Below, one piece after another: positions 5,455 to 55,936 of a stretch of 64,000 bases of DNA; positions within the stretch are counted from its first letter, which is position 1; every line of letters begins with the position of its first letter. The translations under genes were made by a program, and so were the position numbers. Source of the stretch: Streptomyces sp. NBC_01142 (GTDB lineage Bacteria > Actinomycetota > Actinomycetes > Streptomycetales > Streptomycetaceae); the NCBI RefSeq assembly GCF_026341125.1, contig NZ_JAPEOR010000001.1, positions 1,984,001 to 2,048,000 on the forward strand. The letters are read 5' to 3'. A model generated the notes under the pieces. It saw only the letters and a list, made by a program, of their open reading frames with translations, searched no databases and was not told the DNA's origin.

Positions 5455-5494
5455 GAGTCTCACCTCCTGAGGGCGTTACGGCGATTGACTGCGG

Positions 5495-32372: not shown

Positions 32373-32441
32373 CCCGAGCGCCCGGACCGACGTGGCCACG
32401 CGACCAAGCCGTCGGGGCCAAGCCACCTGGAGGAAGCAGTC

Positions 32442-35415: not shown

Positions 35416-35431
35416 GAAGGAGAAGTCCCTC

Positions 35432-36173
<742 letters not shown>

Positions 36174-36202
36174 GCCCCCGGGCAAGGAAAGGGAACTCCC
36201 CG

Positions 36203-36535: not shown

Positions 36536-36541
36536 TACGAC

Positions 36542-36582
36542 GATCGCCCCGAGCCCGGCTCAGTGCCGGGCTCGGGGCGATC
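36542..36582. terminator. Perfect 18-bp inverted repeat, convergent terminator
   Basis: Arms at 36542-36559 and 36565-36582 pair perfectly over 18 bp around the loop TCAGT. It stands 7 bases after the cyclase stop and 48 bases from the 3' end of the minus-strand methyltransferase gene, so it serves both. Confidence 0.9.
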
Positions 36583-36630
36583 TCGTGGTTGCGGGTCCTG
36601 ATGCGGTGCCTGGAGCAGTCCTGATGCGGA

Positions 36631-37719
36631 TCAGCCCGGGATGACGCACTCGAACGCGTGCAGATACGCGTTGACCGGCCGGACCTCGCCGACCAGCAGA
36701 CCGGCCTGCGTCATCCGGTCCACCAGGCTGGCCCGGGAGTGCTTCGCGCCGCCGACGTTGAGCAGCAGAAGCAGGTCCATGGCCGTGGTGAACTTCATCG
36801 AGGGAGTGTCGTCGACGAGATTCTCGATGACCACGACCCTGGCTCCCGGCCGGGCCGCCGCGACGATGTTCCGCAGAGTCCTGCGGGTGCTCTCGTCGTC
36901 CCACTCCAGGATGTTCTTGATGATGTAGAGATCCGCCTCGACGGGGATGCCGAGGCGGCAGTCCCCGGGAACGATCCGTACGCGCTCCGCGAGTGAGCCG
37001 CCGTCACTCAGCCGCGGGTCGGCCTTCGCCACCACACCGGGCAGATCGAGCAGGGTGCCCCGTACGGCAGGATGCTTCTCCAGCAGACTCGCGAGCACAT
37101 GTCCCTGGCCGCCCCCGATGTCCGCGACCACCGAAACACCGGTGAGGTCGAGGAGTTCAGCGACGTCCAGTGCCGACTGCATGCTGGATGTGGTCATGGC
37201 CCGGTTGAACACATGGGCCGACTCATGTGCGTCCTGGTGCAGATAGTCGAAGAACCCCTTGCCGTACACATCGTGGAAGACGCTCCCGCCCGAACGCACC
37301 GCCTCGTCGAGCCGCGGCCAGACGTCCCACGTCCACGGCTCCGTGCACCACAGGGCGATGTACCGAAGGCTGTTGGGATCGTCGTCACGCAGCATCAGGG
37401 ACATGTCCGTGTGGGCGAACGTCCCGTCCTCGGTCTCGACGAAGATGCCGTAGCAGGACAGGGCGCGGAGCAGCCGGCGCAGGGGCTGTGGTTCGGTGTG
37501 CAACGTCGCGGCGAGGTCCTCCGCGGTGGCAGGTGTGTCGCCGAGCGCGTCGGCCACGCCCAGCCGGGCGGCAGCGCGTACGGCCGCGGCACACGCCGCC
37601 CCGAAGACGAGCTCCCTCAGACGCATGGCCGGCGGGGGAGTGGGGCTGGGGAGGGGGGCGTGGGTGGTGATGGGGAGAGGGGTGTGAGTGGTGGTGGGGC
37701 TGGGACTTACGGTGGTCAT
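36631..37719 (-). CDS. SAM-dependent O-methyltransferase
   Basis: A 362-residue methyltransferase of the acetylserotonin/hydroxyneurosporene type, frequent in aromatic polyketide clusters. An N-terminal dimerisation part has LRELVFGAACAAAVRAAARLGVADAL; the SAM-binding site is VVADIGGGQGHVLASLL, followed by LLDLPGVV and the catalytic region IIKNILEWDDESTRRTLRNI. Its first 30 residues are a Pro/Thr/Ser tail. It faces the cyclase gene across a terminator and starts 34 bases after the beta-helix gene. It may methylate the pigment; S. coelicolor whiE has no such gene. Confidence 0.85.
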   Translation of the reverse strand: MTTVSPSPTTTHTPLPITTHAPLPSPTPPPAMRLRELVFGAACAAAVRAAARLGVADALGDTPATAEDLAATLHTEPQPLRRLLRALSCYGIFVETEDGTFAHTDMSLMLRDDDPNSLRYIALWCTEPWTWDVWPRLDEAVRSGGSVFHDVYGKGFFDYLHQDAHESAHVFNRAMTTSSMQSALDVAELLDLTGVSVVADIGGGQGHVLASLLEKHPAVRGTLLDLPGVVAKADPRLSDGGSLAERVRIVPGDCRLGIPVEADLYIIKNILEWDDESTRRTLRNIVAAARPGARVVVIENLVDDTPSMKFTTAMDLLLLLNVGGAKHSRASLVDRMTQAGLLVGEVRPVNAYLHAFECVIPG

Positions 37720-38818: not shown

Positions 38819-39080
38819 GAGCCGAAGTTATGGGCGATCTTTCCCACTCGCCACACGGAGTGAGCGGATGGATACATTCCGTGGGCCAGGTCGGCGCAGA
38901 AAAGGCTTGGCGCGTTTATCTCCGGCCGGGCTGGGGTGAGCGCGCTCGCTCGGTGGCGGAAGGCGGCCGGGCCCAGCTGTCCGAAACCGGGAGGTGTGAC
39001 GGATGGCTGTCATGGCGAGGAGTGCTGCCCTCGTCCAGAACCGGTGGTGCGGGGGCCGGAGGTTGGGGAATGATGCCGCC

Positions 39081-39593
39081 ATGGCCGAGATCAGCGACTC
39101 GCTGTGGAACGACGACGTCACCGTCTCCGACTATCGCGAGGGGTCCGCGCCGTACCAGGCGGCGGTGTTCGAGCAGTACAAACTGTGCGTGGAGATGGCC
39201 GACCGGGTCAGCGGCCGCCGCAACCTGGCCAACACGTTCTTCCTGACGTTCAACGGCGGCCTCGTCGCCTTCCTCGGCGCATGGCTGTCGCGGGCGGACC
39301 GGGACGGCCTGCCGGTCCTGCTGCTCCTGGCGGGGCTGCTGGTCCTGCTGGCCATGTGCGCCGCCTGGTGGTTCACCGTCCGCTCCTACCGGCAGTTGAA
39401 CGACGGGAAGTGGAAGGTGATCGGGGGCCTCGAGGACCGGCTGCCGACCCGTGCCTTCTCGGCCGCCGAGTGGCGGGCGCTGGACGAGGGACGGGACTGG
39501 CGCGTCTATCTGCCGCTGACCCACGTCGAACGCTGGGTCCCCGTCATCTTCGCCGGCGCCTACCTCATGGGTTTCGCCGCCCTGGCGCTGTGA
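39081..39593 (+). CDS. RipA-family-like membrane protein
   Basis: A 170-residue protein. The N-terminal 60 residues are hydrophilic (YQAAVFEQYKLCVEMADRVSGRRN) and two hydrophobic segments follow (TFFLTFNGGLVAFLGAWL and LPVLLLLAGLLVLLAMCAAWW), then a cytoplasmic part and a last hydrophobic stretch (WVPVIFAGAYLMGFAALAL). The pattern ANTFFLTFNGGL...W is that of the RipA family of octameric membrane proteins. Its role here is unknown. It is followed after 90 bases by a SLOG-like protein, a pairing that hints at nucleotide signalling or defence. Confidence 0.7.
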   Translation: MAEISDSLWNDDVTVSDYREGSAPYQAAVFEQYKLCVEMADRVSGRRNLANTFFLTFNGGLVAFLGAWLSRADRDGLPVLLLLAGLLVLLAMCAAWWFTVRSYRQLNDGKWKVIGGLEDRLPTRAFSAAEWRALDEGRDWRVYLPLTHVERWVPVIFAGAYLMGFAALAL

Positions 39594-39683
39594 CGCGTAC
39601 CAGGGACGGCCGGCTCTCGGCGCCACCGAGGGCCCGCGGGTAGTGTTCGACGCCAGTCCGCAGGTCCGGGAGGGTGGTGCCGA

Positions 39684-40181
39684 ATGACCACGATCGCCGT
39701 CACCGGCCATATGGATCTGGCCGCACAGGCCACCGGGCCCATCCGTGAAGGCCTCCACGCACTGCTGTCGGGCTTCCGCGGCGGCGCCCTCGCGGGGCGC
39801 TCGTGCCTGGCACGCGGCGCCGACTGCCTCTTCGCCGAGGAGCTGCTCGCGCTCGGAGGGCGGCTGTCGGTGATCATCCCGTCCCGGGACTACCGGGAAG
39901 CGGTGGTGCGCCCCGATGACCTTCCGCGCTTCGACGCCTTGCGGGACGCCGCCGCGGACGTGACCGTCATGCCGTACGAGCATGCGGGTCCCGGCGCCTA
40001 CGAGGCGGCCAACGTCCGCCTGTTGCAGGGGGCGGACCGGCTGCTGGCGGTGTGGGACGGCAGTGTGCCCTCGGGGCGTGGCGGCGGCACCGCGGACACG
40101 GTGGCCGCGGCACGGGCGGCCGGAGTGACGGTCGACGTGCTGTGGCCACCCGGGTCCCGGCGGACCGGTTTCCGGAGCTGA
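39684..40181 (+). CDS. SLOG/LOG-like Rossmann-fold protein
   Basis: A 165-residue protein. TTIAVTGHMDLAAQATGPI opens the fold; CLARGADCLFAEELLALGGRLSVIIPSRDY contains the GADxLFAE and IPSxDY patterns of the SLOG/LOG superfamily (nucleotide or nucleotide-sugar binding); LLQGADRLLAVWDGS follows. Such domains occur in systems that sense or cut signalling nucleotides. A good ribosome-binding site (GGGAGGGTGG) is present. It lies between the RipA-like protein and the chaperone/TIR operon. Confidence 0.65.
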   Translation: MTTIAVTGHMDLAAQATGPIREGLHALLSGFRGGALAGRSCLARGADCLFAEELLALGGRLSVIIPSRDYREAVVRPDDLPRFDALRDAAADVTVMPYEHAGPGAYEAANVRLLQGADRLLAVWDGSVPSGRGGGTADTVAAARAAGVTVDVLWPPGSRRTGFRS

Positions 40182-40553: not shown

Positions 40554-41000
40554 ATGCCCGATGCCGACATGAGCGGCGGGGCGCTGTTCACGCTGCCCAT
40601 GGTTGTTCCCAGATCGACCGAGTACGCGCGCCTCGGTGTACCGCCCGAGGCCACAGCGGAGGAGATCCGCGCGGCGGCCGCCCGGTACGACGCTCGGCTC
40701 AAGGCGCGCGGCGCCGGCGAGCAAGAGATTGCCGCCGCCCATGCCGCCGGTCTGGAGAACGCCGAAGCCCGCGCCGTGCACGACGCACGCCATCCACCGC
40801 TCCCGCTCCTGCGCCTCGAGCCGACCTGGCAACCGGTCCTCGACGACAGGGACGCCGGTCTGACCGTGCTGCGCCGGGAGATCGAGGCCTTCCTGACGGC
40901 CGCCGGCGAGAGTGTCCACCCCCCGGCGGACACGACCCGAACCGATTTCACCGGCGACTTCACCCGCTCGCACCTGCTCGACGGCTTCGCCGACGAGTGA
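40554..41000 (+). CDS. J-domain-like protein lacking HPD
   Basis: A 148-residue protein. Residues 22-80 fit helices I-IV of a J domain (STEYARLGVPPEATAEEIRA; AAHAAGLENAEARAVHDARH), but the HPD loop between helices II and III, needed to stimulate Hsp70 ATPase, is missing (RYDARLKARGAGEQE instead). The tail has LPLLRLEPTW and a region ending in acidic residues. It precedes the Hsp70 gene by 19 bases. It is best described as a pseudo-J partner that may recruit rather than stimulate the chaperone. GGGGG upstream serves as ribosome-binding site. Confidence 0.6.
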   Translation: MPDADMSGGALFTLPMVVPRSTEYARLGVPPEATAEEIRAAAARYDARLKARGAGEQEIAAAHAAGLENAEARAVHDARHPPLPLLRLEPTWQPVLDDRDAGLTVLRREIEAFLTAAGESVHPPADTTRTDFTGDFTRSHLLDGFADE

Positions 41001-41019
41001 CTCCCCGGAGGACCTCCCC

Positions 41020-42993
41020 ATGGACGATGAGCTGCACCGGGTCATCGGCATCGACCTCGGCACGACCTACTCGGCCGTCTCCGCCTACCACCCCGACGAG
41101 TTCGCCCCGACCATCCTCGCCGACCCCGAACGCGAGGGGGCCGCAGCCGTCGCCACACCCTCGGCCGTGCGGCTCGATCCCGGCACCGGCACGCTCGTGG
41201 TCGGACACGACGCCAAGGATGCCATCAGCGAAGGGCCGGGCGCCGGCGACACATTGGTGGAGATCAAGCGGGAGATGGGGGCGGTCTTCACCCCCGAGCT
41301 GCTGAGCCACTTCGGCGCGGCCGGCGTCCACGCGGAGGGCGACCCCGTACGGGCCAGGCTCGGCGGCGAGTGGCTGCGCCCGCAGGAGATCAGCGCGCTG
41401 GTACTCATGCGGATGAAGCGGATCGCCGAGCAGACGCTGGGCGGAGAGGTCCACGACGCGGTGATCACCGTACCCGCGTACTTCATGGAACGGCAGAAGA
41501 AGGCCACCGAGGAGGCGGCGCTGCTGGCCGGCCTCTATCCCCGCCAGCTCATTCCCGAGCCCACCGCTGCGGCCATCGCCTACGGGGTCGACCGCGCCGA
41601 ATCCGAGAAGCAGATCTATCTGGTCTTCGACCTGGGAGGCGGCACGTTCGACGTGTCGATCATCCAGACCCAGAACGACGAGATCGAGGTCATCGCGACC
41701 GCCGGTGACCAGCGGCTGGGCGGCGGCGACTTCGACGACGCCGTCGTCGAGTGGATCCTTGGGGAGCTGGGCGAGGCGCTGCCGAAGGGCACCGAACGGC
41801 TGCGGATCAAGGCGGCCGCGGAGGCCGCGAAGCGCGAACTGTCCCTGCGCAGCAGCACGACCATCGACCTCGGCAACTCAATCCCGCCCCTGGAGCTCGA
41901 CAGGGCCACCCTCGAAGCGCTGATCCAGCCGATCCTCGCCCGGTCCCTGCGCGAGGTCGGCGAAGCCCTGCGCCTGGCCGAGGCGAAGGGCGTGCGGCGC
42001 GAGGACATCAACGCGGTGCTGCTCGTGGGTGGTTCCACCCGCATCCCCCAGGTCAAGCAGATGCTGCTCGACCACTTCGACCAGGACGAGGGGTTCGTAC
42101 GCGGCGACGCCAATCCCGACACCCTGGTCGCCAGGGGTGCGGCGATCATGGCCTACCGGTTCGAGCCGTCACCCGTCTTCGACCTGGAGTCCGGGCCGGC
42201 CGGCGAGCGGTCCGCGGATGGCCAGGACTACACGGTCACACTGATCACCGAGCACACCCTGGGCGTCGGGGTCCAGCAGGGGAAGTTCGACAAGCTGATC
42301 GACCGGGGCACCAAGATCCCGGCCCGCAAGGTGAAGTCGTACGCGAATCCGGAGCAGGCCCACCGCATCGAGGCGGCCGTCTACCAGGGCGAGGGCGCGT
42401 ACATCTACGACAACACCCTGGTCGGCACGATCCACCTCGACGACATCGAGCCCCGCCCGGAGGGGTACCACCAGTTCGAGGTCGAGTTCTCCCTCACGGT
42501 GGACGGTCTGCTCGAAGTGCAGGTCACCCACGCCAACACCGGGCGGGAGTACAAGGCATCCTTCGAGCAGGCCACCAACATCGGCCACCTCAGCGAGCTG
42601 GCGGAGCGGCGCGCGGCCCTGGTGAAGCTGTACGCGACCGTCAGGCCGGCCGGGGCTCCGGGCGGCGCGAAGCCCGCCGACGCGCGGCAGTTGGATGCCG
42701 GAGAGCAGGCGTTCACGATTCCCCCGCCGGTGACCGAGACGGTGCCGGAAGCCGCAGCGGTCCCGGCGCCCGCGTCCGCACCCGCCGCGGAGATCGACCC
42801 CGGCAGCGTACCGGCGGAGTACCGGCGCCTGGTCAAGAAGGCGCTCCGGGCGGCGCGGGACGGGCAGGCGCCGGCCTCGCTCACCGAGTCCCTGCGCGCG
42901 TTCGTGGACGCGGTGGGCGCAGGTGCGGACGAGGACACGCTGGACGAGTTCGCCGACCGGCTCGAGGACGCGTATGACGACAGTCGTCGGTGA
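41020..42993 (+). CDS. Hsp70-family chaperone with divergent C-terminus
   Basis: A 657-residue Hsp70. The ATPase domain is complete: IGIDLGTTYSAVSAY (phosphate 1), YLVFDLGGGTFDVSI (phosphate 2), AVLLVGGSTRIPQVKQML (adenosine), and LIPEPTAAAIAYG. The substrate-binding beta domain is recognisable (ITEHTLGVGVQQGKFDKLI; YHQFEVEFSLTVDGLLEVQV), but the usual alpha-helical lid is replaced by a Pro/Ala linker and a short helical domain (EYRRLVKKALRAARDG ... LDEFADRLEDAYDD). This is not the housekeeping DnaK. It likely binds the other products of this operon. Confidence 0.92.
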   Translation: MDDELHRVIGIDLGTTYSAVSAYHPDEFAPTILADPEREGAAAVATPSAVRLDPGTGTLVVGHDAKDAISEGPGAGDTLVEIKREMGAVFTPELLSHFGAAGVHAEGDPVRARLGGEWLRPQEISALVLMRMKRIAEQTLGGEVHDAVITVPAYFMERQKKATEEAALLAGLYPRQLIPEPTAAAIAYGVDRAESEKQIYLVFDLGGGTFDVSIIQTQNDEIEVIATAGDQRLGGGDFDDAVVEWILGELGEALPKGTERLRIKAAAEAAKRELSLRSSTTIDLGNSIPPLELDRATLEALIQPILARSLREVGEALRLAEAKGVRREDINAVLLVGGSTRIPQVKQMLLDHFDQDEGFVRGDANPDTLVARGAAIMAYRFEPSPVFDLESGPAGERSADGQDYTVTLITEHTLGVGVQQGKFDKLIDRGTKIPARKVKSYANPEQAHRIEAAVYQGEGAYIYDNTLVGTIHLDDIEPRPEGYHQFEVEFSLTVDGLLEVQVTHANTGREYKASFEQATNIGHLSELAERRAALVKLYATVRPAGAPGGAKPADARQLDAGEQAFTIPPPVTETVPEAAAVPAPASAPAAEIDPGSVPAEYRRLVKKALRAARDGQAPASLTESLRAFVDAVGAGADEDTLDEFADRLEDAYDDSRR

Positions 42994-44479
42994 GCGAAGA
43001 GAGGTCATCGAGGAGGAACTCGAGGCCGAGTACGCGGGGGTCGGCTGGTGGGGCTCGCTCTACCGCGCACCGCGGCGGCGCCGCTGGTACCGGCTCATCC
43101 CGGTCGAGGAGATCAGCGGCGAGCAGCGGTCCGAGCTGCTCGCCTGGCAGACGCGGCCGCGTCGCCCCGACCTCGTCCCGGTGGTGCCCGGAGAGCGGGG
43201 CGAGCAGCGGCAGTTCGCGGACCGCTGGTACCAGATCGTCTGCTACGAGACCGACGCCGAGCGCAGCCTCGCCGACGCGGTCGCCGAGCCCGAACCGACC
43301 CGTCGGCTCGCCTCCGTGGCCGACGTGATCCGGGCACTTCCGGGCTGGCGCGAGGCGATGGGCACCGGCCTGGTGCCGCTGCCCGCCGACACCGTGCTCG
43401 CCGGGCACCGGCCGCTGCTGCTGCCGCTGCCGGCCTGGGGCTCCCCCTCCCTCGGACAGGTCTTCGCCGAGCCGGAGCGGGTGGCTCATCTGACGCCCGA
43501 GGCGGTACGCGGCCTGCCGTCCGGCGGCCGCGCCCCCGACCTGTACGCGCTGGGCGTCGCGGCGCTGCGCTGCTTCGGGACACTGCCGTACGACGACACG
43601 GAGCGGCTCCTCCAACGGACCTCCTGTGCCGCCGTGTTCGGGGACCAGCGGCGCGATGGCCGGCTGCCTTCGTGGATGCGCCGCGTGGAGCCGGTGCGGA
43701 AGGTGCTGCAACAACTGTGCGACCTCACCGGCCCCCGGGCCGCGGGGTCCGGCGACGCGGATCCGTGGCAGCTGGCCGACGCCCTCGATCAGGCACGACG
43801 CGCGATGGACCCGCTGACGGCGGTACGTTCCCTCCGGGCCGCGGGTGAACCCCGCAAGGCCGTTGGGCTCGCCCACGCGGCGCTGGTCGACCAGCCGGGC
43901 TCCCCGCTGCTGCTCCTCGCGGCCGAGATCGCCCACCAGGATCTGGGGGAGCCGTTGGAGGCGCTGTCGCTGCTGGAACGCGCGGTACAGGCGGACCCGG
44001 AGCGCAGTCAGGCCTACGCGGCACAGCTGTCGATCATCGGCGGCCTGTGGTCCGTCGTCCAGGGCCGGCTCGCCGGGGCCACCAACGGCTCCTTCGCCCA
44101 CCGGCTCCATGCGACGGCCCGCGCGGCCTTCGACCGCCTGCCGCCCGAATCGCGCCGGGAACACGCTCACGAGATGGCCCGCTGCCTCATCGGCCAGGGC
44201 GAACTGGTCGAGGCCAGCGCCTTCGTGCACCACTGGCTGCACGACGGGGACACGCTGATGTGGTGGCGCTTCGACCTCATGCTCGACTACGCCGAGACCT
44301 TCCTGAGGCTCGGCCGCCTCGAAGCCGCCGCCCAGATCGCCGACCAGGTCAAGGCGGGACTGCGCCGCATCCGGGAGAGCGGCCGGATGGACCGGCGCGA
44401 CATCCATGAACACGGCATGCGGTACGCGGACTTCGTACGAGATCTGCACGAGGCACGGGGCGGGGAGACGGGCACGTGA
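42974..44479 (+). CDS. Pseudokinase-TPR protein
   Basis: A 501-residue protein. Residues 30-260 follow the order of a protein kinase domain: WYQIVCYETDAERSLADAV (hinge), PADTVLAGHRPLLLPL (catalytic-loop place), HLTPEAVRG (APE place) and APDLYALGVAALRCFG (F-helix). The key Lys, HRD Asp and DFG Asp are absent, so it is probably a pseudokinase. The rest forms TPR-like helices (RSLRAAGEPRKAVGLAHAAL; LGEPLEALSLLERAVQADPE). The ATG overlaps the Hsp70 gene by 20 bases; the next gene starts within its stop. Confidence 0.65.
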   Translation: MTTVVGERREVIEEELEAEYAGVGWWGSLYRAPRRRRWYRLIPVEEISGEQRSELLAWQTRPRRPDLVPVVPGERGEQRQFADRWYQIVCYETDAERSLADAVAEPEPTRRLASVADVIRALPGWREAMGTGLVPLPADTVLAGHRPLLLPLPAWGSPSLGQVFAEPERVAHLTPEAVRGLPSGGRAPDLYALGVAALRCFGTLPYDDTERLLQRTSCAAVFGDQRRDGRLPSWMRRVEPVRKVLQQLCDLTGPRAAGSGDADPWQLADALDQARRAMDPLTAVRSLRAAGEPRKAVGLAHAALVDQPGSPLLLLAAEIAHQDLGEPLEALSLLERAVQADPERSQAYAAQLSIIGGLWSVVQGRLAGATNGSFAHRLHATARAAFDRLPPESRREHAHEMARCLIGQGELVEASAFVHHWLHDGDTLMWWRFDLMLDYAETFLRLGRLEAAAQIADQVKAGLRRIRESGRMDRRDIHEHGMRYADFVRDLHEARGGETGT

Positions 44480-46026
44480 TCACGATTCTGCTGGCGGGCG
44501 TCCTTCCGCTGCTGTTCCTGTCGACGGTGGCCAGCGCCGCGTACTTCCTCGTGGTGCTGCCGAGCCTGTGGCGGCTGCCGTACGAGCAGTCCCTGGCCCT
44601 GCTCGACAGCGACGACCGAGACGAGCTGGAGCGGGCCGACCGGCTGCTCGGGCAGGCGCTCAACGCCGGGCCCCGGGGACGGGCGCTCGGCCGGATCCGG
44701 TTCGCGCAGGCCCATGTGCGGGCGATGCTGGGGACGTACGAACCCGCCCGCTACGGTGCCGCCGCGACCGTGCTCGACGAGCTGATCACCGCCGAGGGCC
44801 GCACCGAACACACCGCCTACCTGGAGCTGTGGGTGCAGGCGCGGCTGGAGAACCACGACCGCGTCACCGATCTCTACACCGAGCACCGCGACCTCCTGGA
44901 CGCCCGCCCGCAGAGCCGCCGCATCGCCGCCATCTCCCACCTCCAGCTGGCCGCCGGGCACTGGCGGCGGCGGGAGACCGACGGATCCCTGCACCACTTC
45001 GACCGGGTCCGGGAACTCGGCGAACTCACCGAGAAGATCCCGCCCGAGGTCAACGACCTCCAGCTTGTCAAGGGCGTCCAGGCGGTGTTCGACGGGCGGA
45101 CCGACGAGGCCCGAGCCGCGTTCGGCGACGCGCGGAAGCGGTCCGCCGAGCGGGGACTGCCGACTGTGGAGGCCGAGTTGGGGCTGCTCGTCTGCGACTG
45201 GGCGGACGGCGACCCCCAGCGGCTGGGCGAATGGCTGGGACACCTGGCGGAGGAGGTGGAGCAGAACCCTCCGGAAGACGGCACGGCGGAGCTCCTGCGC
45301 ACCGGCATCGCGCTGCTGAGGCTCCTGACGCTCCTGCGGGAATGGCTGCTCAGGCCCGCCCTGTCCGGGGCACCGTCGGCGGCCGACTTCGGGGAGCTGA
45401 GGCGGCGGGGGGACGCGCTGCGCGAGGCCGACCCCGAACTCGGTGACGCCTGCCTCGTCGACGGCCTGGTCCGCTACTACTTCGCCCTGGACCAGTCCGA
45501 GCGCGAAGGGGCCCTCGCCGTGCTGGAGAGCGGCACCGGGTTGGCCAAGGGCATCCTGCTGCCCGAGGTGCTGGACCTCATGGAGCGCGAGCGCGCGCTC
45601 GGCGGGGAGGGAGACGCCATCTCGCGCTTCCGCGTCCTCGTGGAGGAGCTCCACGACGATCCCGAAGGCTCGGAGGAGAACCGGGCCCAGTACCGGCGCC
45701 TCAAGGCGAAGTTCACCCGGTTCGGGGACCCCGGCGACCTCGAGGACGGGGCCGTTCCGAACCAGCGGGTCCCGCTGGACGACCACCGGCGCCGCTCGGC
45801 GGCGCTCCGCAGCCGCGTCGAACTCATCCTGTACCCGAGACTCCGGGATCTCGCCGACGACGACCCCGCACGCGGCGCCGTGCGCGAGCTGCTGGACGAA
45901 CTCGAGCAGGCGTCCTCGGTGTACGTCGAGGGCGCCGAGGTCCTGCACGGCGCCGAGCGCAACCTCATCACCAGTACCGGACAGATCCTGCTGCCCGAGG
46001 AGCCTGATGACCAGGATCGTGCCTAG
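44476..46026 (+). CDS. Membrane-anchored TPR-like protein
   Basis: A 516-residue protein. A single N-terminal hydrophobic segment (ITILLAGVLPLLFLSTVASA and beyond) anchors it in the membrane. Helical repeat pairs follow with the DELERADRLLGQALNAGPRG and VQAVFDGRTDEARAAFGDAR patterns, in the style of TPR and protein-interaction scaffolds. The C-terminal part is charged. It starts at a GTG inside the stop of the preceding gene (GTGA). It could bring the operon's complex to the membrane. Confidence 0.7.
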   Translation: MITILLAGVLPLLFLSTVASAAYFLVVLPSLWRLPYEQSLALLDSDDRDELERADRLLGQALNAGPRGRALGRIRFAQAHVRAMLGTYEPARYGAAATVLDELITAEGRTEHTAYLELWVQARLENHDRVTDLYTEHRDLLDARPQSRRIAAISHLQLAAGHWRRRETDGSLHHFDRVRELGELTEKIPPEVNDLQLVKGVQAVFDGRTDEARAAFGDARKRSAERGLPTVEAELGLLVCDWADGDPQRLGEWLGHLAEEVEQNPPEDGTAELLRTGIALLRLLTLLREWLLRPALSGAPSAADFGELRRRGDALREADPELGDACLVDGLVRYYFALDQSEREGALAVLESGTGLAKGILLPEVLDLMERERALGGEGDAISRFRVLVEELHDDPEGSEENRAQYRRLKAKFTRFGDPGDLEDGAVPNQRVPLDDHRRRSAALRSRVELILYPRLRDLADDDPARGAVRELLDELEQASSVYVEGAEVLHGAERNLITSTGQILLPEEPDDQDRA

Positions 46027-46303
46027 CCGGCCGAACGGGGCCGTGCCCCGGCGTCTGGCCGGTCTCCTGCCCGGCAGACGCCGTACGGCGGACCACGCCG
46101 GGCTGCTCGACCGGCTCGCGCCCGTGGAGCACCGTCCCGCGGCGGACGAGGAGCAGCTCTTCGAACAGGCCTCGCTGGCCCGGGTGCTGCTCCTCATGGT
46201 GAAGGTGGACCAGGAGGCCGAGTATCTGCTCTGCCGGGAGCTGGCCGAGCACGCGCTCGGCAGCGTGCCCGAACCCCGCGACGGAACAGAGGCCTCGGAC
46301 TGA
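46007..46303 (+). CDS. Small hypothetical protein in TIR operon
   Basis: A 98-residue protein of no known family. The N-terminal third is basic (RRLAGLLPGRRRTA), the rest is helical and acidic (EEQLFEQASLARVLLLMVKV and QEAEYLLCRELAEHALG). The ATG overlaps the preceding gene by 20 bases and GAGGAG stands just before it. Coupling to both neighbours argues that it is real. A small adaptor or lid for one of the TPR proteins is possible. Confidence 0.65.
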   Translation: MTRIVPSRPNGAVPRRLAGLLPGRRRTADHAGLLDRLAPVEHRPAADEEQLFEQASLARVLLLMVKVDQEAEYLLCRELAEHALGSVPEPRDGTEASD

Positions 46304-46393
46304 GGCCCCTTCTCCGTCCCGGGCACACCGCTCTCGTGTCCGCAATCCCCGACCTCCCCGCCGTCTTTCCCTCTGTCACCGGAAGGGGCACCC

Positions 46394-48274
46394 GTGACCG
46401 GCACCGGCCGTGACCACGCATTCCAGGAGATCCGCCCCGTACAGGCGCTGCAGATGCCCGCCTTCGAGTTCACGGAGGTCAGGGGGCACGACGACGTCGC
46501 CGAACACGACCGGCGCCTGGAGGAGATCGCCCGCGAACACGCCGCCAAGGCCGCCTCGCAGACCGCGCTGGTCCTGGCACCGCCCGCCGATTCGCTGGTC
46601 GAGATGTCGCTCGATCTGGGCTCCGACGGGGAGGAACTGCTGGCGGACGCCCGGGCGAACGCCCGCGACGGCCGGCACGACGTGGCGCTGGAGCAGCTGG
46701 AGGAGTATCTGCGGCCGGCCCCCGAGCACCAGGAGGCCCGCTATCTGCGCGCGTACTGTCTGTACCACCTGGGCGGGCAGCACCACCTGAAGGCACTGCG
46801 GATCCTGCGCCCCCTGCGCGACGAGCCGGTGGAAGCCGACCTGCGCGAGCGGATCAGTGACCTCCGCCGCGAACTGCGCCGCCGTCTCACCCCGCTTGAG
46901 GTCACCGCGTACACCGGGACGGCCAGGTCCGATCCCCTGGGTGCGTTGGCCCGCGTGGAGGCGTTCCTGGAGCTGGCCCCGGAAGAGGGCACACTGTCCT
47001 ACCTCCTCGCCCTCGGCCAGTCGCGGGGCGGTGATCTGGAAGAGGCCCTCGACACGGCCACCCGTGGCGCCGCCGAGGCCGATGTCGATCAGGAGCAGGT
47101 CGCTGCGCTGGCGCGCAGGCTGCGGCTCGCGCTCCTGGCGCCGGTCGCCGCGCCGGCCGTCACCGCGTTCAAGGCCGGTGACCTGCACCGCGCCCGCGGC
47201 GAGCTGTTCCGCATGGACCCCCGATGGCGCGCGAACATGGTCCTTGACGACTTCGACGCCTATCTCGCCCTCCTGGTCGACCACCCGTCCCTGACGCCGC
47301 CCGCGCCGCGTCTGCCCGCCGATCGCACCGAGGACCTCTACTCGCTGATCGCCGAATCCGACGGGCAGCATGCCGCCGTGCTGATGCAGACCGGTCGCGC
47401 CGACGAGGCGGAGCGGCTGCTGGCCCATGTGCTGTCCCTGGTGCCGGACTTCCCCTGGCTCAACTTCCTCTACGCGGCCTGCCTCTACCGACTGGGCCGC
47501 GAGCCCGACCGCGCCGCGGCCTGCGCCGAGATCGCCCGGCGGGACCCCGCCATCGCCCAGGCCGACCAGCTGCTGGAGGCGATCAGGGGCTGGCAGGAGG
47601 CCGCGGTGATCAACCCCGCGCTGGACGAGTACGTCGCCGCCATGGAATCCGTACGGGGCGAGGTGTCCGCCGACCGGCTGGAGGCACTGCGCAAGCGGAT
47701 GGCCGTGCTGGAACGCGGGCTCCCCGCGCTGCGCGAGGCGGCCCGGACCGAACGGGGAGCTCAGGTCGTCCGGGAGCTCGGGGAGGCGATCGGGCAGCGG
47801 CTCGCGGAGGTCACCGACGCCATGGCCGTGCACCGCCTGTACGAGAAGTACGAGGGCATCATGTCCACGGCCAAGGGCGGAGTATCGGACGCGTCGGCGG
47901 CGGACCGGCTCGCCCGTTCGCTCGACGGCCTGGCGGCGGAGATCAAGAACACCCGCCGCCGCGCCGATAAGGGCGGCCCGGGGAATCAGCTCGACGAGCT
48001 GGCGGCACTCGTGACCCTCCGCCGCACGGAACTCGACCGAGTGACGGCGGCTGTGCGGGTGTCCGATCTCGTACGGCGCTTCAATCAGCTGGCCGAACGA
48101 CAGTCCGAACCTCTTGCGCGGCTGCGCGCGGCTCCGTCCGAGGTGCGCGGCACGCTGACCGCGATCCTCAACGAGGCACGGCAGCTGAGCCGCAGTGCCA
48201 AGGGCACCTTGGACGCCCGGGACCGGTCGCTGCTCGACGAGTTGATCGGCACGATCGCGAGGACGCTGCGATGA
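46394..48274 (+). CDS. TPR-like repeat protein
   Basis: A 626-residue protein made of helical repeats. TPR-type pairs include ANARDGRHDVALEQLEEYLR, LLALGQSRGGDLEEALDTA and AAVLMQTGRADEAERLLAHVL, followed by a C-terminal coiled-coil-like part (LRKRMAVLERGLPALREAA and LDELAALVTLRRTELDRV). No enzymatic motif is seen. The start is GTG with GGAAGGGG upstream. The stop overlaps the start of the TIR gene by four bases. Confidence 0.75.
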   Translation: MTGTGRDHAFQEIRPVQALQMPAFEFTEVRGHDDVAEHDRRLEEIAREHAAKAASQTALVLAPPADSLVEMSLDLGSDGEELLADARANARDGRHDVALEQLEEYLRPAPEHQEARYLRAYCLYHLGGQHHLKALRILRPLRDEPVEADLRERISDLRRELRRRLTPLEVTAYTGTARSDPLGALARVEAFLELAPEEGTLSYLLALGQSRGGDLEEALDTATRGAAEADVDQEQVAALARRLRLALLAPVAAPAVTAFKAGDLHRARGELFRMDPRWRANMVLDDFDAYLALLVDHPSLTPPAPRLPADRTEDLYSLIAESDGQHAAVLMQTGRADEAERLLAHVLSLVPDFPWLNFLYAACLYRLGREPDRAAACAEIARRDPAIAQADQLLEAIRGWQEAAVINPALDEYVAAMESVRGEVSADRLEALRKRMAVLERGLPALREAARTERGAQVVRELGEAIGQRLAEVTDAMAVHRLYEKYEGIMSTAKGGVSDASAADRLARSLDGLAAEIKNTRRRADKGGPGNQLDELAALVTLRRTELDRVTAAVRVSDLVRRFNQLAERQSEPLARLRAAPSEVRGTLTAILNEARQLSRSAKGTLDARDRSLLDELIGTIARTLR

Positions 48275-50067
48275 CGACGGACGGAGCGGCGACCGCGTCC
48301 GCGGCCGAGCAGTGGGACGTGTTCATCAGTTACGCCCGCGAGGACTTCATCCAGGCCAAGAGCCTGCACGATGCTCTGAGCGAGTGCGTGACCGCCCGCG
48401 GCGGGACGCCGAGGATCTACCTCGACGTGTCACGCACCGGCACGCCCGTGGGGGCGGACTGGCAGAGCTTCCTCGAGGAAGCCCTCCCCCGCAGTCGCCA
48501 TGTCGTGGCGCTCTATTCGCAGACGTACTTCGACAAGGACGTCTGCCAGTGGGAGCTGCACGAGGCGTACAAGCTGAACCCGCCGGAGGGCGGCCGGCTC
48601 ATCCCGGTGCTCATCGACCCGGAGGCCGCCAAGAAGGTTCCGTACATCGTCAACCGGATCAACTGGATCCCGACGTACAAGCCGCACTGGATCGAGGAGG
48701 TGCGCGAGTCCGTCGGGCTGCGCCCCGCCGGGGCGCGCCCCGTCCTACGGTTCGACACCCCGGTCACCGATGTGGTGGCCGGCCACACGCTGCCCGCCCT
48801 GAGCGTGAGCGGCTCGGCGCAGGGGAGCGCGCCCCGGTGGCCGTCCGGGGCGACGGTCACCCTCGCCGCCGACCCGCCCGTCGCCGGGCTGACCGGCACG
48901 CTCACCGCGCCGGTCACCCGGAACCCGGCCGTTTTCGGCGACCTGGCGTTCCGGACGGCCACGGCCGAGGTGCGGCTCGTCGCCACCGCCCCCGGCTGCG
49001 AACCGGCCGTGACCCCGCCGTTTGCGGTGCGGGCGCCCGCCGAGCAGCCGTCCTGGGACGACGGCGACCGTCCTGTCCTTGCCGCGCTCGGGCGCCCGGT
49101 CTTCTTCCCCGACGGCCGGGCCCTGGCCGTGCGTGACGGGCGGAAGCTGACGATCCACACGGCGGCGTACGAGGCCGCCGGCACCGCGGAGCTCAGGGAG
49201 CGGCCCCGGCTGTGGGCGCGCGGGGAGCGCTGTCTGGCCGTCGCCGACTGGTCGGGGCGGGTGGTCCTCGCAGCCCCGGACGGGACGATGCGGGTCGTGG
49301 ACCTGCCGGCGCCGCACGGTGCGCGGTTCAACGTGCCGGGCGCGCTGGCGTTCGACGGGGACGTGCTGCACATCGGCATGTGGGGAGGGTCCGTGTGGTC
49401 CCTCTCCCTCGACGCCGAGGAGCCGGAGCTGGTGCTGGAACACCGGGCTGGGGTCCAGGTGTTGGTGGCCGGCAACACCGGGCTGCTGGTGGGCGACCTC
49501 GGCGGGAAGCTCACCCACTACGTGCTGGGCAGGGCCAGGGCGGAGCACACTCTGGAACCGCTGCTTCTCGCCATCACGCACGTGCGGGACTACGCACTGA
49601 TCTTCGGTGAACACCGGGTCCACCGGTGGGACCTGGCCAAGGGACAGCTGCTTCAGGTCCCCCAGCCCGTGACCGGGATCACCGGGACGCTCCCGGACGG
49701 CGAGCTGACCGCGATCGTCGACGCGGAGGGCCAAGGCGTCTGTTTCGATGCCGAGTTGGCGGTGCGCGTCGGCTTCCACACGGTGCCCGGCGCCCGGCCC
49801 GTGGGCTCGGGCCGGGGCGGGCGCCTGCTGGTCCTGGAGTATCCCGACGGCTCCCACGCGCTGGTGCGCGACGGCCGCACCACCTATGTCTGCGAGCACC
49901 CGATGGCCGTCTCCCCCGACGGGCGCCGGGCAGCGGTGTCGGACGGGGAACGGCTGCTGATCCTGCCGCCCGAGAAGCTGGGCGGCGGTGTGGCGCCGTC
50001 GGACGCCGACGGGAGCCCGGGTCCGGGGAGAGGCATCACGGATCCGGGGGAGGGGAAGCCCGCATGA
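48271..50067 (+). CDS. TIR-domain protein with beta-propeller C-terminus
   Basis: A 598-residue protein. Residues 15-145 form a TIR domain: WDVFISYAREDF at the start, then RIYLDVSRTGTPVGADW, HVVALYSQTYFDKDVCQWEL with the conserved acidic residue (Glu95) at the place of the NADase glutamate, and INWIPTYKPHW. After a beta-rich linker, residues 270-570 show repeated four-strand blades (FPDGRALAVRDGRKLTIH; DGDVLHIGMWGGSVWSLSL), a WD40-like propeller. A TIR with this glutamate can be an NAD-cleaving effector; the propeller may keep it silent until triggered. Confidence 0.85.
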   Translation: MTTDGAATASAAEQWDVFISYAREDFIQAKSLHDALSECVTARGGTPRIYLDVSRTGTPVGADWQSFLEEALPRSRHVVALYSQTYFDKDVCQWELHEAYKLNPPEGGRLIPVLIDPEAAKKVPYIVNRINWIPTYKPHWIEEVRESVGLRPAGARPVLRFDTPVTDVVAGHTLPALSVSGSAQGSAPRWPSGATVTLAADPPVAGLTGTLTAPVTRNPAVFGDLAFRTATAEVRLVATAPGCEPAVTPPFAVRAPAEQPSWDDGDRPVLAALGRPVFFPDGRALAVRDGRKLTIHTAAYEAAGTAELRERPRLWARGERCLAVADWSGRVVLAAPDGTMRVVDLPAPHGARFNVPGALAFDGDVLHIGMWGGSVWSLSLDAEEPELVLEHRAGVQVLVAGNTGLLVGDLGGKLTHYVLGRARAEHTLEPLLLAITHVRDYALIFGEHRVHRWDLAKGQLLQVPQPVTGITGTLPDGELTAIVDAEGQGVCFDAELAVRVGFHTVPGARPVGSGRGGRLLVLEYPDGSHALVRDGRTTYVCEHPMAVSPDGRRAAVSDGERLLILPPEKLGGGVAPSDADGSPGPGRGITDPGEGKPA

Positions 50068-53000
50068 CATCCCGCAGGGCGCTGGAGAACCGGCCCGATG
50101 TGCTGTGGCGCATGGTCGGGCACCTGTGGTCGCGCCTCGAAGAGGGGGAGCGGCTCACCCAGGGACAGCTGGACGCCGTGGTCGAAGGGTTCTTCCGGAT
50201 CGGAGTACATCCCGGCACCGACCCGCCGACCGCGCTGCGCCTGCTGGCCCGCGCCCACCGGCTGGACGGCTCGAACCCCAAGCACCCGTACCACGTCGGG
50301 CTGCTCTACCTGCGGCACGGCCGACCGGAAGCGGCCGTCCGCTGGCTGACGGCAGCCGCCGCCCTGTCTCCCGTCAACCACCGTATCTGGGCCCATCTGA
50401 GCCTCGCGTACAGGGGACTCCACGAGCATCGGAAGGACACCCCCGACTACACCGGGGAGGATCGCGCCCGGGCCGAGGCGATCGCCGGCACGGTCCGTGC
50501 GGGCCGCGACGACTTCGACCCGGAGGCCGCCGAGCCCACGCTGCCGCTGCTGCGGCCCGGGGAATGCCGGTGGACGGGAATCCACGACATGGCGGCCGAC
50601 GGCCGGCTGCACGGCACGACGGCCGAGCGGACCAGGGACGTACTCGCCGCCGAACTGGAGGGCGTTGCCGAGCTGGCGGGCCGCCGCCGGGGCGGGTGTG
50701 CCGCGTTCACCGTCCTGGCCGTGCAGTGGATGGTGTACGGCTACCCGACCGCGACCGTGCGCAGGCTGGCGAAGAGACTGCCGCCCGACGACGGCCCGGC
50801 GACCCGCATGCTGGACCTGGTCTGCGACCTCCTCGAGACCGATCGTGGCGAACTCCCGGACCGGCTCGCGGCCTGTCTGGCCGACCGCTCCCTCCCCGAC
50901 CTGCTCGTCGCGCTGCTCCACCGGCGGCGACTGTTCTGGCGCCCGCTCCGGTTCCCGGACCTGGGCGCCCACGCGGCCGCCAGGGAATTCACCGACGGCG
51001 ACCCGGCCAGGCACGAGAAGGCCCTGCAGTCGGCGTGGAACGCGCTCGGCGCCGGACCTCCCGAGCCGATGGCGGACGTCCCGAACCCGTCGGGGCCCGC
51101 CGAGCCGGAGGCCACGGGCCCCGACGAGCGGCTGGTGATGTTCGAGGAGGTGGCCGCCCGGCTGACCGGCGTGGTGGACCACGCACTGGCCCACGCCAAA
51201 CTCCTGGGCAGGACCACGGTGGGTGACGAGGCCGACTTCCGTCGGATTTCGGGGGACAAGGACGTCCTGACGGAGATGGTGGACCGTCTGGAGACCTCGC
51301 GGAAGTCCTGGTTGGAGGCTCTCCAGCGGTTCAAGGACGCCGAGCCGACCGGTCTGGTCATGGCGTTCGAGGACTTTCGTCAGCGGGTGGAGGAGTGCGA
51401 GGCGCGGTTCCAGAAGTCTCCGGGCAGTGTGCGGAAGGTCCTGGACAGGAAGGTCGGCCGGAATCTGGCGGCGCGGCAGAAGGAGTTCGGGTCGGCCGCA
51501 CCCGCGCCCTCGGAGCACGCGCTGGCTCTCGAGGAGCGGCTGTCCGACCTGGAGGCGCAACGGCCCTCGGCGGCTCCGGCCGACGGCCCGGCGGCAACCG
51601 GTCAGCGCCCCTCTTCCCCGCCGCCGCCCGCCGATGCCGGCGCACGCGAGCGGGTGGCCCACGCCCTCGACGCCGCCGAACGCCGGCTCGACGACAACTT
51701 CGCCGAAGCCTGGCAGACGCTGGACGCCTATCCTGCGCGGCTGAGGAACGGGGAGGCCGTCACCCTGCTGCGCGCCTATCTCGGCGGACACCAGGCGGAG
51801 GCCGAACTCCGGCTGGGCCGGACGACAGCCGCGCGACGGCGCTGGAGCGGCATGCTCACCGACGACCCCCTGCATCCCGGAGTGCTGCGGAACCTCGCGG
51901 TGGCGCACACCTCGGCGGGGGACCTGGGCCCGGCCGCGCAGGCGTGGAGCCGCTATCTCGAAGCGCTGTACCTGCGGGACATGCTGGCCGGGGACATCCG
52001 CCGCGGCGCCGCCGACCGCGCCGAGCTGCACGGCGTGCTGGCCGGTTCCTTCGGCACGGCCGCGCTGTACGCGCGCTCCGCGCCCGGCGCCGAGCTGGAC
52101 GGGGACGTGCGGCAGATCGCCCCCGTCCTGGCCGGCACCGGCAAGGTCGCGATCACCGTCGCCCACCTACGGCTGGAAGAGCTCAACCACACACTCTCGC
52201 ACCGCAGCCCGACTCTGCTTCTCGGCGTCGGCCGCTCCGTCGGGGAAGCGGAGCTGGCCGCCGCGCGGGACCGTCGCACGACCGCGGTCGAAGCAGCCGT
52301 ACGGGCGCTCCCGGCCAGGGTGCGGGACCCCTTCGAGAAGCTGTGCCGCCAGGCCGTCGACGAGGCGCACCGCGAAGCCTCCGAGACGAACGGGCGCACC
52401 CGCAGGCCGGGCGACGAGGCCGAGGAACAGGCGCACATGGACTGGGCGCGCGGGCGGATCCTGTGGAAGCTGCGGATCGCCAAGGGCGTCATGGGAGCGG
52501 ACGCGGACTGGCCGCTCACCGAGTACTCCGGCGACGTGATCCGGAATCTGCGCCTCATCGACGAGCTGCCCCTGGACGCGGCGGACGAGGCAGTGCTGCG
52601 CAGCGCCCAGCAGCTGGGGACCCCGGGCGACCCCAAGAAGTTCGTCGAACGGCACAACCAACTCTCCGAACTCGCCTGTCGATTCGCGCTGGGGCAGATC
52701 TTCGAGGCGTCCGAGGAGAGCGCGTCCGGCGCCGCCACGCACGACTTCCCCGACCGGTTCCGGCGCATCGGCCGCTCCTGGGGACGCAACAGCGACGCGA
52801 TTCCCGAGGAGTACGCCGATCGCCTCGACGACCCCACGCGGCTCTACCAGTCGTCCGCGAGGTCGGCGTTCGCGATCCTGGGGTCCTCGGGTGCCCCCAC
52901 CGACGACCGGGAGCGCGGCATCGTCGCGGCCGCCGTGACCGGATTGGAGCGCTGGGTGAAACGACTGCCCGGGGCCACCGGCCCCGCCCGCGCCCTGGCC

Positions 53001-53690
53001 GCGCTCCTGAGCAGCCTCGACCGGCACGACGAGGCCCTGGAGGTGCTGGCCACTGCCAGGGACGAGGCGTTCGGTCCGCTGGGACGGGACCGGCTCGCGG
53101 TGTCCTTCGTCCGACTCGACATCGCCCGCGGACGGTTCGCGGTGGCCGTGACACAGGTGCGGACGCTGTTGGAGAGCGGTCCCGACGACGAGCAGCTCCG
53201 CCATCTGCTCACCCGGGCCTACCAGAGCTGGATCAACTCCGGCGAGGACACTCCCGCCGCGGGGCGCATCGCCGAGGACTTCGCCCGGTGGACGGATCCC
53301 GAGACCGTCGGGAACCGCCGTCGGCTGGTCGTGTCGGCGACCCTGGCCCGCTACCAGGACCGCCCGGACGGGGCGCAGACCGCCGCGCTCGCGGGCGAGC
53401 TGCGAGAGCTGTGCCTGCAGGACCCCGGCAACGCGGAGGCCCGCTACCACCTTGCCTGCGCGCTGTACCGGCAGGCCTGGGAGATCCGCGAGCGGATCCG
53501 GGGCGCTGCGGGCCGACGGCGCCGGGAATTGGGCGAGGAGCTCGCCGAGATCCGCAAGGAGTGCGCGGGGCACTGCCTGGCACTCCTCGGCCCGGAATCC
53601 GCCGAGGCGGCTCCCGGGACGCTCACCGACGAGGAACGGCGCGAGCAGATCCGGCGGATCCTCAAAGACGTACGCCCTGATGACCTGTGA
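50064..53690 (+). CDS. Large TPR-like repeat protein
   Basis: A 1208-residue protein, the largest in the window. N-terminal TPR-like pairs (PYHVGLLYLRHGRPEAAVRWL; LSPVNHRIWAHLSLAYRGL) are followed by a middle region with long helices and a Pro/Ala linker near residue 500, then further repeats (LRLGRTTAARRRWSGML; ALAALLSSLDRHDEALEVLA; QVRTLLESGPDDEQLRHLL). It starts at ATG 50064 inside the TIR gene's stop (ATGA); a much longer open frame upstream in this frame overlaps the TIR gene and is not used. It may be the scaffold or sensor of the complex. Confidence 0.75.
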   Translation: MTSRRALENRPDVLWRMVGHLWSRLEEGERLTQGQLDAVVEGFFRIGVHPGTDPPTALRLLARAHRLDGSNPKHPYHVGLLYLRHGRPEAAVRWLTAAAALSPVNHRIWAHLSLAYRGLHEHRKDTPDYTGEDRARAEAIAGTVRAGRDDFDPEAAEPTLPLLRPGECRWTGIHDMAADGRLHGTTAERTRDVLAAELEGVAELAGRRRGGCAAFTVLAVQWMVYGYPTATVRRLAKRLPPDDGPATRMLDLVCDLLETDRGELPDRLAACLADRSLPDLLVALLHRRRLFWRPLRFPDLGAHAAAREFTDGDPARHEKALQSAWNALGAGPPEPMADVPNPSGPAEPEATGPDERLVMFEEVAARLTGVVDHALAHAKLLGRTTVGDEADFRRISGDKDVLTEMVDRLETSRKSWLEALQRFKDAEPTGLVMAFEDFRQRVEECEARFQKSPGSVRKVLDRKVGRNLAARQKEFGSAAPAPSEHALALEERLSDLEAQRPSAAPADGPAATGQRPSSPPPPADAGARERVAHALDAAERRLDDNFAEAWQTLDAYPARLRNGEAVTLLRAYLGGHQAEAELRLGRTTAARRRWSGMLTDDPLHPGVLRNLAVAHTSAGDLGPAAQAWSRYLEALYLRDMLAGDIRRGAADRAELHGVLAGSFGTAALYARSAPGAELDGDVRQIAPVLAGTGKVAITVAHLRLEELNHTLSHRSPTLLLGVGRSVGEAELAAARDRRTTAVEAAVRALPARVRDPFEKLCRQAVDEAHREASETNGRTRRPGDEAEEQAHMDWARGRILWKLRIAKGVMGADADWPLTEYSGDVIRNLRLIDELPLDAADEAVLRSAQQLGTPGDPKKFVERHNQLSELACRFALGQIFEASEESASGAATHDFPDRFRRIGRSWGRNSDAIPEEYADRLDDPTRLYQSSARSAFAILGSSGAPTDDRERGIVAAAVTGLERWVKRLPGATGPARALAALLSSLDRHDEALEVLATARDEAFGPLGRDRLAVSFVRLDIARGRFAVAVTQVRTLLESGPDDEQLRHLLTRAYQSWINSGEDTPAAGRIAEDFARWTDPETVGNRRRLVVSATLARYQDRPDGAQTAALAGELRELCLQDPGNAEARYHLACALYRQAWEIRERIRGAAGRRRRELGEELAEIRKECAGHCLALLGPESAEAAPGTLTDEERREQIRRILKDVRPDDL

Positions 53691-54729: not shown

Positions 54730-54775
54730 CGCGCCGAGCGCGCCGCCGGGGCCACCCTTCGAAGGGTTTCCCTTG
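54730..54775 (+). promoter_or_regulatory. Hairpins covering the rsgA ribosome-binding site
   Basis: GCGCGC-CGA-GCGCGC (about 54729-54743) can form a hairpin, and ACCCTTCGAAGGGT (54754-54767) is a perfect palindrome that includes the GAAGGG ribosome-binding site of rsgA. Pairing would hide the site. The TTG start follows at 54773. Seen: the repeats and their position. Inferred: translational control. Confidence 0.5.
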
Positions 54776-55936
54776 TTCCACGCTTCGCTCAACACCCCTT
54801 CCACTTCTGATGCCCAGCATGCCCTCGCCTCCTACGGCTGGGACGAAGGCTGGGCTGCCGAGTTCGCTCCGTACGCCGAGCAGGGGCTGGTGCCCGGCCG
54901 TGTCATACGGGTCGACCGTGGCCAGTGCGATGTCGTCACCCCGGACGGCACCGTGCGGGCCGATACCGAATTCGTTGTCCCGCGCGATCCGATGAAGGTC
55001 GTGTGCACGGGGGACTGGGTTGCTGTCGATCCGGCCGGCGATCCGCGGTATGTGCGGACGTTGCTGCCTCGACGCGCCGCCTTCGTGCGGTCGACCTCGT
55101 CCCAGCGGTCCGAAGGCCAGGTGCTGGCCACCAACATCGATCACATCGTCATCTGTGTGTCCCTCGCGGTCGAACTCGATCTCGGGCGGATCGAGCGGTT
55201 CCTCGCCCTCGCGATGTCCAGCTCGAGCGGGGATGCGCTGCTGCACAGGCCGGCATCCTCCTGGGAGAGCGGCGCGCAGCCGCTCGTCGTGCTCACCAAG
55301 GCCGACCTGGTGCCGGATCCGATCGGACTCTCGTACCTCGTCCAGGACGTGGAGACGACCGCGCCCGGAGTGCAGGTGCTGCCGGTCAGCTCGGAGACGG
55401 GTGAGGGCATCGAGGTACTCGCCGCGATCGTCTCCGGCGGGACGAGTGTGCTGCTCGGTGTCTCCGGTGCGGGCAAGTCGACCCTCGCCAACGCGCTGCT
55501 CGGGGAGGACGTGATGGATGTGCAGACCATCCGTGACGTCGATGGCAAGGGCCGGCACACCACGACGACCCGCAACCTTCTCGTCCTGCCGGGCGGGGGC
55601 GTCCTGATCGACACCCCCGGCCTGCGGGGCGTCGGCCTCTGGGACGCCGAGACCGGTGTGGGCCAGGTCTTCTCGGAAATCGAGGAACTCGCCGCACAGT
55701 GCCGTTTCCACGACTGCGGACACGGTGCGGAGCCGGGCTGCGCGGTGCTGGCCGCGATCGAGGACGGTTCGCTGCCGGAGCGCCGGCTGGAGAGCTACCG
55801 CAAGCTGCTGCGCGAGAACCAGCGCATCGTCGCGAAGACGGACGCACGGCTGCGGGCGGAAATCCGGCGAGACTGGAAGCAGAAGGGCGCGGAGGGCCGC
55901 GCGGCCCTGCAGGCGAAACGCGGCCGGGTCCGCTGA
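54773..55936 (+). CDS. rsgA: Ribosome small-subunit-dependent GTPase A
   Basis: A 387-residue circularly permuted GTPase. The OB fold (QGLVPGRVIRVDRGQCDVVTP) comes first, then G4 LTKADLV, G1 VSGAGKSTLANALLG and G3 DTPGLRGVGLW, the permuted order of RsgA. The zinc knuckle is CRFHDCGHGAEPGC. RsgA checks maturation of the 30S decoding centre. The start is TTG (54773), with GAAGGG six bases upstream; no ATG or GTG close by suits better. The C-terminal basic tail is typical. Confidence 0.93.
   Translation: MFHASLNTPSTSDAQHALASYGWDEGWAAEFAPYAEQGLVPGRVIRVDRGQCDVVTPDGTVRADTEFVVPRDPMKVVCTGDWVAVDPAGDPRYVRTLLPRRAAFVRSTSSQRSEGQVLATNIDHIVICVSLAVELDLGRIERFLALAMSSSSGDALLHRPASSWESGAQPLVVLTKADLVPDPIGLSYLVQDVETTAPGVQVLPVSSETGEGIEVLAAIVSGGTSVLLGVSGAGKSTLANALLGEDVMDVQTIRDVDGKGRHTTTTRNLLVLPGGGVLIDTPGLRGVGLWDAETGVGQVFSEIEELAAQCRFHDCGHGAEPGCAVLAAIEDGSLPERRLESYRKLLRENQRIVAKTDARLRAEIRRDWKQKGAEGRAALQAKRGRVR

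Follow-up and report, generated by a model that had tools for sequence, protein, structure and literature searches.

In one type of Thoeris, the product of a TIR protein is read by a SLOG domain; the SLOG domain of ThsA holds a pocket for 3' cyclic ADP-ribose (3'cADPR), and its TM-macro version is believed to form clusters in the membrane (PMC11204291). The YpsA-like clade of SLOG proteins is said to include cADPR sensors, while SLATT proteins are predicted to be membrane effectors regulated by a derivative of ADP-ribose (PMC9503650). The GAP1-N2 GTPase-centric conflict systems combine HSP70, GrpE and DnaJ-FNIII proteins (Kaur et al. 2020, PMC7159879). Here we describe an operon of eight genes (A to H) that joins an Hsp70, a TIR protein and several TPR proteins. 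It lies on the plus strand, at positions 40554-53690 of a 64,000-nucleotide (nt) stretch (hereafter the window; GC content 71%) of the 10.1-Mb genome of Streptomyces sp. NBC_01142. Our tentative reading, held with somewhat less than even confidence, is that the products of the eight genes form a single signalling complex, whose TIR product is read, where it is present, by a docked pair of genes for an 8xMP membrane protein and a SLOG protein. The operon, which the pair often flanks, may be an alarm or suicide system of bacteria that has not been described before.

Comparison with described systems

We compared the locus with the literature on the basis of excerpts from four papers (PMC7159879, PMC8195603, PMC9503650 and PMC11204291). 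The likeness to Thoeris, as the excerpted account presents it, is that a TIR protein is combined, at some of the loci, with a membrane protein and a protein of the SLOG fold. However, the SLOG and membrane proteins are here the products of separate genes and the pair is not obligate, whereas the ThsA of Thoeris is a SIR2-SLOG or TM-macro protein in one chain; a Pfam scan of nine proteins (the operon without E, plus the pair) detected neither a SIR2 nor a macro domain. Moreover, the chaperone, pseudokinase and TPR body of the operon has no counterpart in those parts of the Thoeris description that were compared (PMC11204291). The operon is not a member of Thoeris, and it may work like a TIR/SLOG signalling system.

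With the GAP1-N2 systems the operon has an HSP70 gene in common; in the excerpts this HSP70 stands among J-type and TPR proteins in conflict-type operons, actinobacterial hosts included, and TIR is listed among the effectors of a related subsystem (PMC7159879). In contrast to that account, in which TIR is variable, a TIR protein is found in 18/18 of our loci, and the J-like protein of the operon lacks the HPD motif. In addition, a Pfam scan of seven operon proteins (A-D and F-H) found no family of GTPases, tubulin, GrpE or FNIII. The docked pair recalls the SLATT/SLOG effectors in placing a small protein with several membrane segments beside a SLOG gene, but in Pfam this protein belongs to 8xMP rather than SLATT, and any kinship is uncertain, SLATT_1 matching a single 8xMP homologue weakly (E 0.038).

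A previous sequence-only reading of the window had not recognised these eight near-gapless genes as a named system. Indeed, no named-system match was obtained in the libraries searched: the operon proteins match PADLOC weakly (best E 3.5e-5) and the pair does not match it at all, no NCBIfam cut-off was reached by the operon proteins, and PHROGs, with six proteins scanned, gave one weak match, to G. Similarly, no publication describing the eight-gene set was found in a partial body of literature on Hsp70, TIR, SLOG, SLATT, Thoeris and defence, consisting of titles and the beginnings of abstracts.

A conserved but patchily distributed operon

The eight genes follow one another, from A/B to G/H, with junctions of +19, -20, -4, -20, +90, -4 and -4 nt, as the earlier reading had described. 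That reading also asked whether the gene order would be conserved elsewhere, and it is. We sought orthologous loci in a collection of species genomes with an alignment of gene C alone, which returned 17 loci (18 with the window), and in 17/17 of them A-B-C-D-E-F-G have the same order and strand. H lies downstream of G in 15/17; in L024 it is cut by the contig end, and in L013 G runs to the contig end, beyond which H would fall. The hosts belong to Streptomyces, Catenulispora, Amycolatopsis, Lentzea, Actinomadura, Actinoallomurus and Nonomuraea, and one record is titled Nocardia. All eight genes are likewise found in another carrier, G716.

The same short overlaps recur among the loci: B/C by 20 nt in 14/18, C/D by 4 nt in 13/18, F/G by 4 nt in 14/18 and G/H by 4 nt in 12/17, with the proviso that the gene starts of the relatives were set by script at the nearest start codon and individual junction lengths may be off. 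Such recurring overlaps indicate translational coupling. The lowest pairwise identity is 29% for F and 36-54% for the other seven genes, B being the highest (54%), and the pairwise-identity matrices of the eight genes correlate with one another (Spearman 0.78-0.96). Conserved order, recurring overlaps and correlated identities are what characterises a single functional unit that does not exchange its members. Swapping of the effector between loci, as happens in many conflict systems, was not seen, G being present in all 17 loci found via C.

Despite this conservation, the operon is rare. We surveyed genomes with G at E≤1e-30, scoring three candidates per genome in the rows shown, and found the full-length protein in 5/392 genomes of the same genus and in 1/396 genomes across the phylum, the latter being that of the window itself. 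On these counts we reject a core housekeeping complex. In a separate draw of 61 genomes, six others had partial TIR-domain matches only. The nearest named relatives of G are from Streptomyces, and all matches with a named source are actinobacterial; no G match was found in the phage and plasmid collections (limits 1e-10 and 1e-30, respectively). By its sequence distribution, the operon is an accessory module, patchy in scattered soil actinobacteria. Four full-length G homologues (P0074, P0075, P0076 and P0077) are only 34-35% identical.

The proteins of the operon

The TIR protein G (48271-50067, 598 amino acids (aa)) matches TIR_2 at residues 17-136 with 61.5 bits against a cut-off of 28, and is followed by a long conserved C-terminal part, which the sequence-only reading took for a beta propeller. 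The conserved glutamate is kept: E95, whose column we take to be that of the catalytic TIR glutamate, is present in 18/18 operon copies, though the identity of G falls to 36%. At E≤0.01, G has a single PADLOC match, to PDC-S66 (E 3.5e-5). The genome of the window has one further weak TIR match (PF01582, G000:C3:274497-274751, 23.4 bits against a cut-off of 21.3).

The chaperone pair of the earlier reading stands for its Hsp70 half. Gene B (41020-42993, 657 aa) matches the Hsp70 family PF00012 with 346.5 bits; aligned with the DnaK of the same genome, it keeps the phosphate-binding motifs and SBD-beta, while the DVLLLD linker is replaced after an insertion. B is thus, judged by these motifs, an ATPase-type Hsp70 that travels with the operon; since it stays below the listed NCBIfam DnaK/HscA cut-offs, it is not classed as a DnaK proper. 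The other half is less standard. Gene A (40554-41000, 148 aa) has nothing over the Pfam cut-off, but a comparison by hhalign with a single DnaJ sequence, from its own genome, gave a probability of 36.7 (E 3.6e-4) against at most 0.3 in seven control alignments. Only 5/18 A members reached the Pfam DnaJ family, with a best E of 0.05, and in a PDB sequence search the top match was a designed protein (E 0.0025), DnaJ-type chains making up 16/26 matches at E≤5. The proposed J-like fold of A is therefore weak but specific at the level of profile comparison. At the loop between helices II and III, HPD is absent in 18/18 copies (these letters occur elsewhere in four of them), and because it is lacking A cannot be named a standard co-chaperone.

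Among the remaining five proteins are several of scaffold type, and TPR families exceed the Pfam cut-off in C, F and H. In C (42974-44479, 501 aa) the TPRs are fused to an assigned kinase fold, which also gave weak IRAK4 kinase matches in the PDB sequence search. In the profile alignment, the position of the VAIK lysine holds R40, which does not vary among the 19 rows of alignment A2, and HRD and DFG are missing from the positions where they would align. (Alignment A1 holds 18 of 77 matches as rows, A2 holds 19 of 60, and A3 holds 24 of the 120 listed among 937 found.) These substitutions make C a kinase fold without catalytic motifs joined to TPRs, in agreement with the pseudokinase-TPR protein first proposed. 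TPR_19 likewise bears out the two other predicted TPR proteins, F (46394-48274, 626 aa, 41.4 bits) and the large H (50064-53690, 1208 aa, 37 bits), the latter with a homologue in 17/18 loci. D (44476-46026, 516 aa), formerly called a membrane TPR protein, has the N-terminal hydrophobic segment in all five orthologues looked at by hydropathy, and the TPR part of the name was not borne out, as D has no TPR family or other match over the cut-off in Pfam. E (46007-46303, 98 aa), scanned in PADLOC, NCBIfam and PHROGs, has a homologue in 18/18 loci.

A docked 8xMP-SLOG pair

The original boundary of 40554-53690 proved too narrow, since it missed a recurrent gene pair on the plus strand at 39081-40181, upstream of A and outside the invariant eight. 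Its first gene (39081-39593, 170 aa) encodes an 8xMP membrane protein (PF24838, 147.6 bits against a cut-off of 30, scored on the longer frame 39003-39590) with hydrophobic segments at 77-95 and 152-170. The second (39684-40181, 165 aa) encodes a protein assigned to the SLOG fold, nearest to YpsA and with ThsA and TRPM2 among the further matches. Neither had a match in the PDB sequence search.

The neighbours of the carriers are largely different apart from this pair. In a clustering of flanking open reading frames (ORFs) from the 18 loci, the top shared families were 8xMP (6 loci) and SLOG (4 loci by ORF calling), and the next two were shared by 2 loci each. This is the unbiased count, as a wider flank clustering included three stretches chosen for having 8xMP. 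In G716, outside the first 18, the pair immediately precedes A in the same orientation. Altogether it adjoins the operon in 7/19 carriers, in three arrangements and in different clades of the tree, where the pairs from the three arrangements do not form one clade. In one sample of genomes, 8xMP was found at E≤1e-25 in 5/5 carriers and 45/387 non-carriers (Fisher 2.8e-5).

In L016, a short SLOG fragment just upstream of A (7176-7325, a 49-aa frame, 74% identical) may be what is left of a decayed pair. Four carriers (G468:C16, G467:C1, G460:C666 and G459:C13) have weaker SLOG paralogues (41-44%) at a distance of about 1.6-4.6 kb from other, weak matches to a TIR profile, and the SLOG family may therefore link to TIR genes generally. 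In a genome without the operon (L147, 8711-16774), a 1349-aa protein that matches trypsin, nSTAND NTPase and TPR is encoded close to an 8xMP gene.

Proposed mechanism

The pair is the most concrete hint on the role of the TIR product. We envisage that D, C, F and H, together with the C-terminal part of G, would form a membrane-associated sensor scaffold, which the Hsp70 and A would assemble and keep primed but silent. A trigger, with phage or the loss of chaperone through proteotoxic stress as candidates, would draw the Hsp70 away or alter the scaffold, so that the TIR domains cluster and cleave NAD+ into an ADP-ribose-type product. In carriers with the pair, the YpsA-type SLOG protein would bind this product and cause 8xMP to permeabilise the membrane, leading to death or dormancy; carriers without it would rely on NAD+ loss or on another receiver. 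No common substitute receiver was evident in the latter, the shared flank families that were scanned being ABC-transporter ATPases, short-chain dehydrogenases and epoxide hydrolases.

It is also tempting to speculate, although we regard this as rather doubtful, that the TIR machine is triggered by the state of its own Hsp70, with the HPD-less J-like partner, pseudokinase and TPR scaffolds serving as a chaperone-occupancy sensor and the signal being read by an exchangeable SLOG-8xMP cassette that was docked more than once. A sensor of this type would be a proteostasis guard, with a logic comparable to that of plant immune receptors held by chaperones. If the main reading is right, a private Hsp70 would control a bacterial TIR pathway, much as chaperones guard immune receptors in plants and animals, and the receiver of the second messenger would be a module that can be gained or lost apart from its sensor. 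The system would be tractable experimentally, with one 13-kb operon, one catalytic residue, one detachable two-gene pair and a culturable Streptomyces.

Alternative explanations

Several observations weigh against assigning the pair to the operon. 8xMP is absent at E≤0.001 from 7/19 carrier genomes, and three further carriers have 8xMP but no SLOG in the surrounding 3.4-kb locus; the pair is for these reasons not obligate. The link between operon and pair is statistical, and as the carriers, few in number, are related, the Fisher value overstates their independence. Among the 45 non-carrier genomes with 8xMP, the loci of 27 were checked for SLOG, and 13/27 had it near 8xMP (two weak, 39-41%, and one about 1.1 kb off); four non-carrier pairs fall inside the operon-linked clade, and SLOG paralogues are common (18/19 genomes searched). 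In the wider flanks, two generic families are shared about as often as SLOG: ABC-transporter ATPases in 5 stretches (in one case 36 kb away from the operon of the window) and short-chain dehydrogenases in 4. In addition, the flanks are not established as defence islands: a PADLOC search at E≤1e-15 with 135/141 flanking ORFs matched 39 families, from which, with no control set, no enrichment is drawn. Among the 25 flank families listed, mad3 occurred in 4 members and the other 24 in one each; PDC-S48, mad6, AbiU and many PD-T4-6 models were among the matches.

Much of this would fit a TIR complex that is gated by the chaperone and works solely through NAD+ depletion, with the pair as a separate module that shares genomic islands with it; we consider this possible, if rather unlikely. 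The carriers devoid of 8xMP fit this explanation, as does the occurrence of the pair in at least 13 non-carriers. The spacing fits as well: where the pair lies upstream in the same orientation (five cases), the SLOG stop and A are 212-954 nt apart, and the pair therefore probably has its own transcript. This explanation does not readily account for the recurrence of the pair beside the operon in three arrangements and different clades, while the other shared flank families are generic where scanned or found in 2-3 loci only.

A role outside conflict, as a complex for development, stress signalling or protein quality control in actinobacteria in which TIR serves as an adaptor or a regulatory NADase, seems unlikely to us. 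The actinobacterial origin of all matches with a named source and the lack of G copies in the phage and plasmid collections speak for it, as do the Hsp70, J-like and TPR proteins, which are standard parts of proteostasis. Nevertheless, presence in so few genomes of the same genus, with largely different flanks, is unlike a core developmental system, and the Catenulispora operon (L018) is preceded at 5207-6220 by a match, at the cut-off, to a phage-type integrase. Finally, an assembly or secretion complex with Hsp70 and TPR scaffolds, to which the several scaffold-type proteins and the membrane-type segment of D could belong and in which TIR would be a fold-only interaction domain, is highly improbable given that E95 is invariant in so diverged a protein and that the Pfam scan of seven operon proteins gave no secretion family over the cut-off.

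Other features of the window

A gene with an RsgA-type GTPase domain lies 1.1 kb downstream of the operon (54773-55936) and does not cluster with the neighbours of other carriers. Upstream, genes for a SchA/CurD protein, a ketosynthase and an O-methyltransferase (31251-37719) suggest, from their family assignments, an aromatic polyketide or spore-pigment cluster. Long open frames on the minus strand at 42881-44449, 44287-46548 and 49884-52166, antisense to the operon, were not called as genes by a GC-frame script; such frames are typical of high-GC coding regions.

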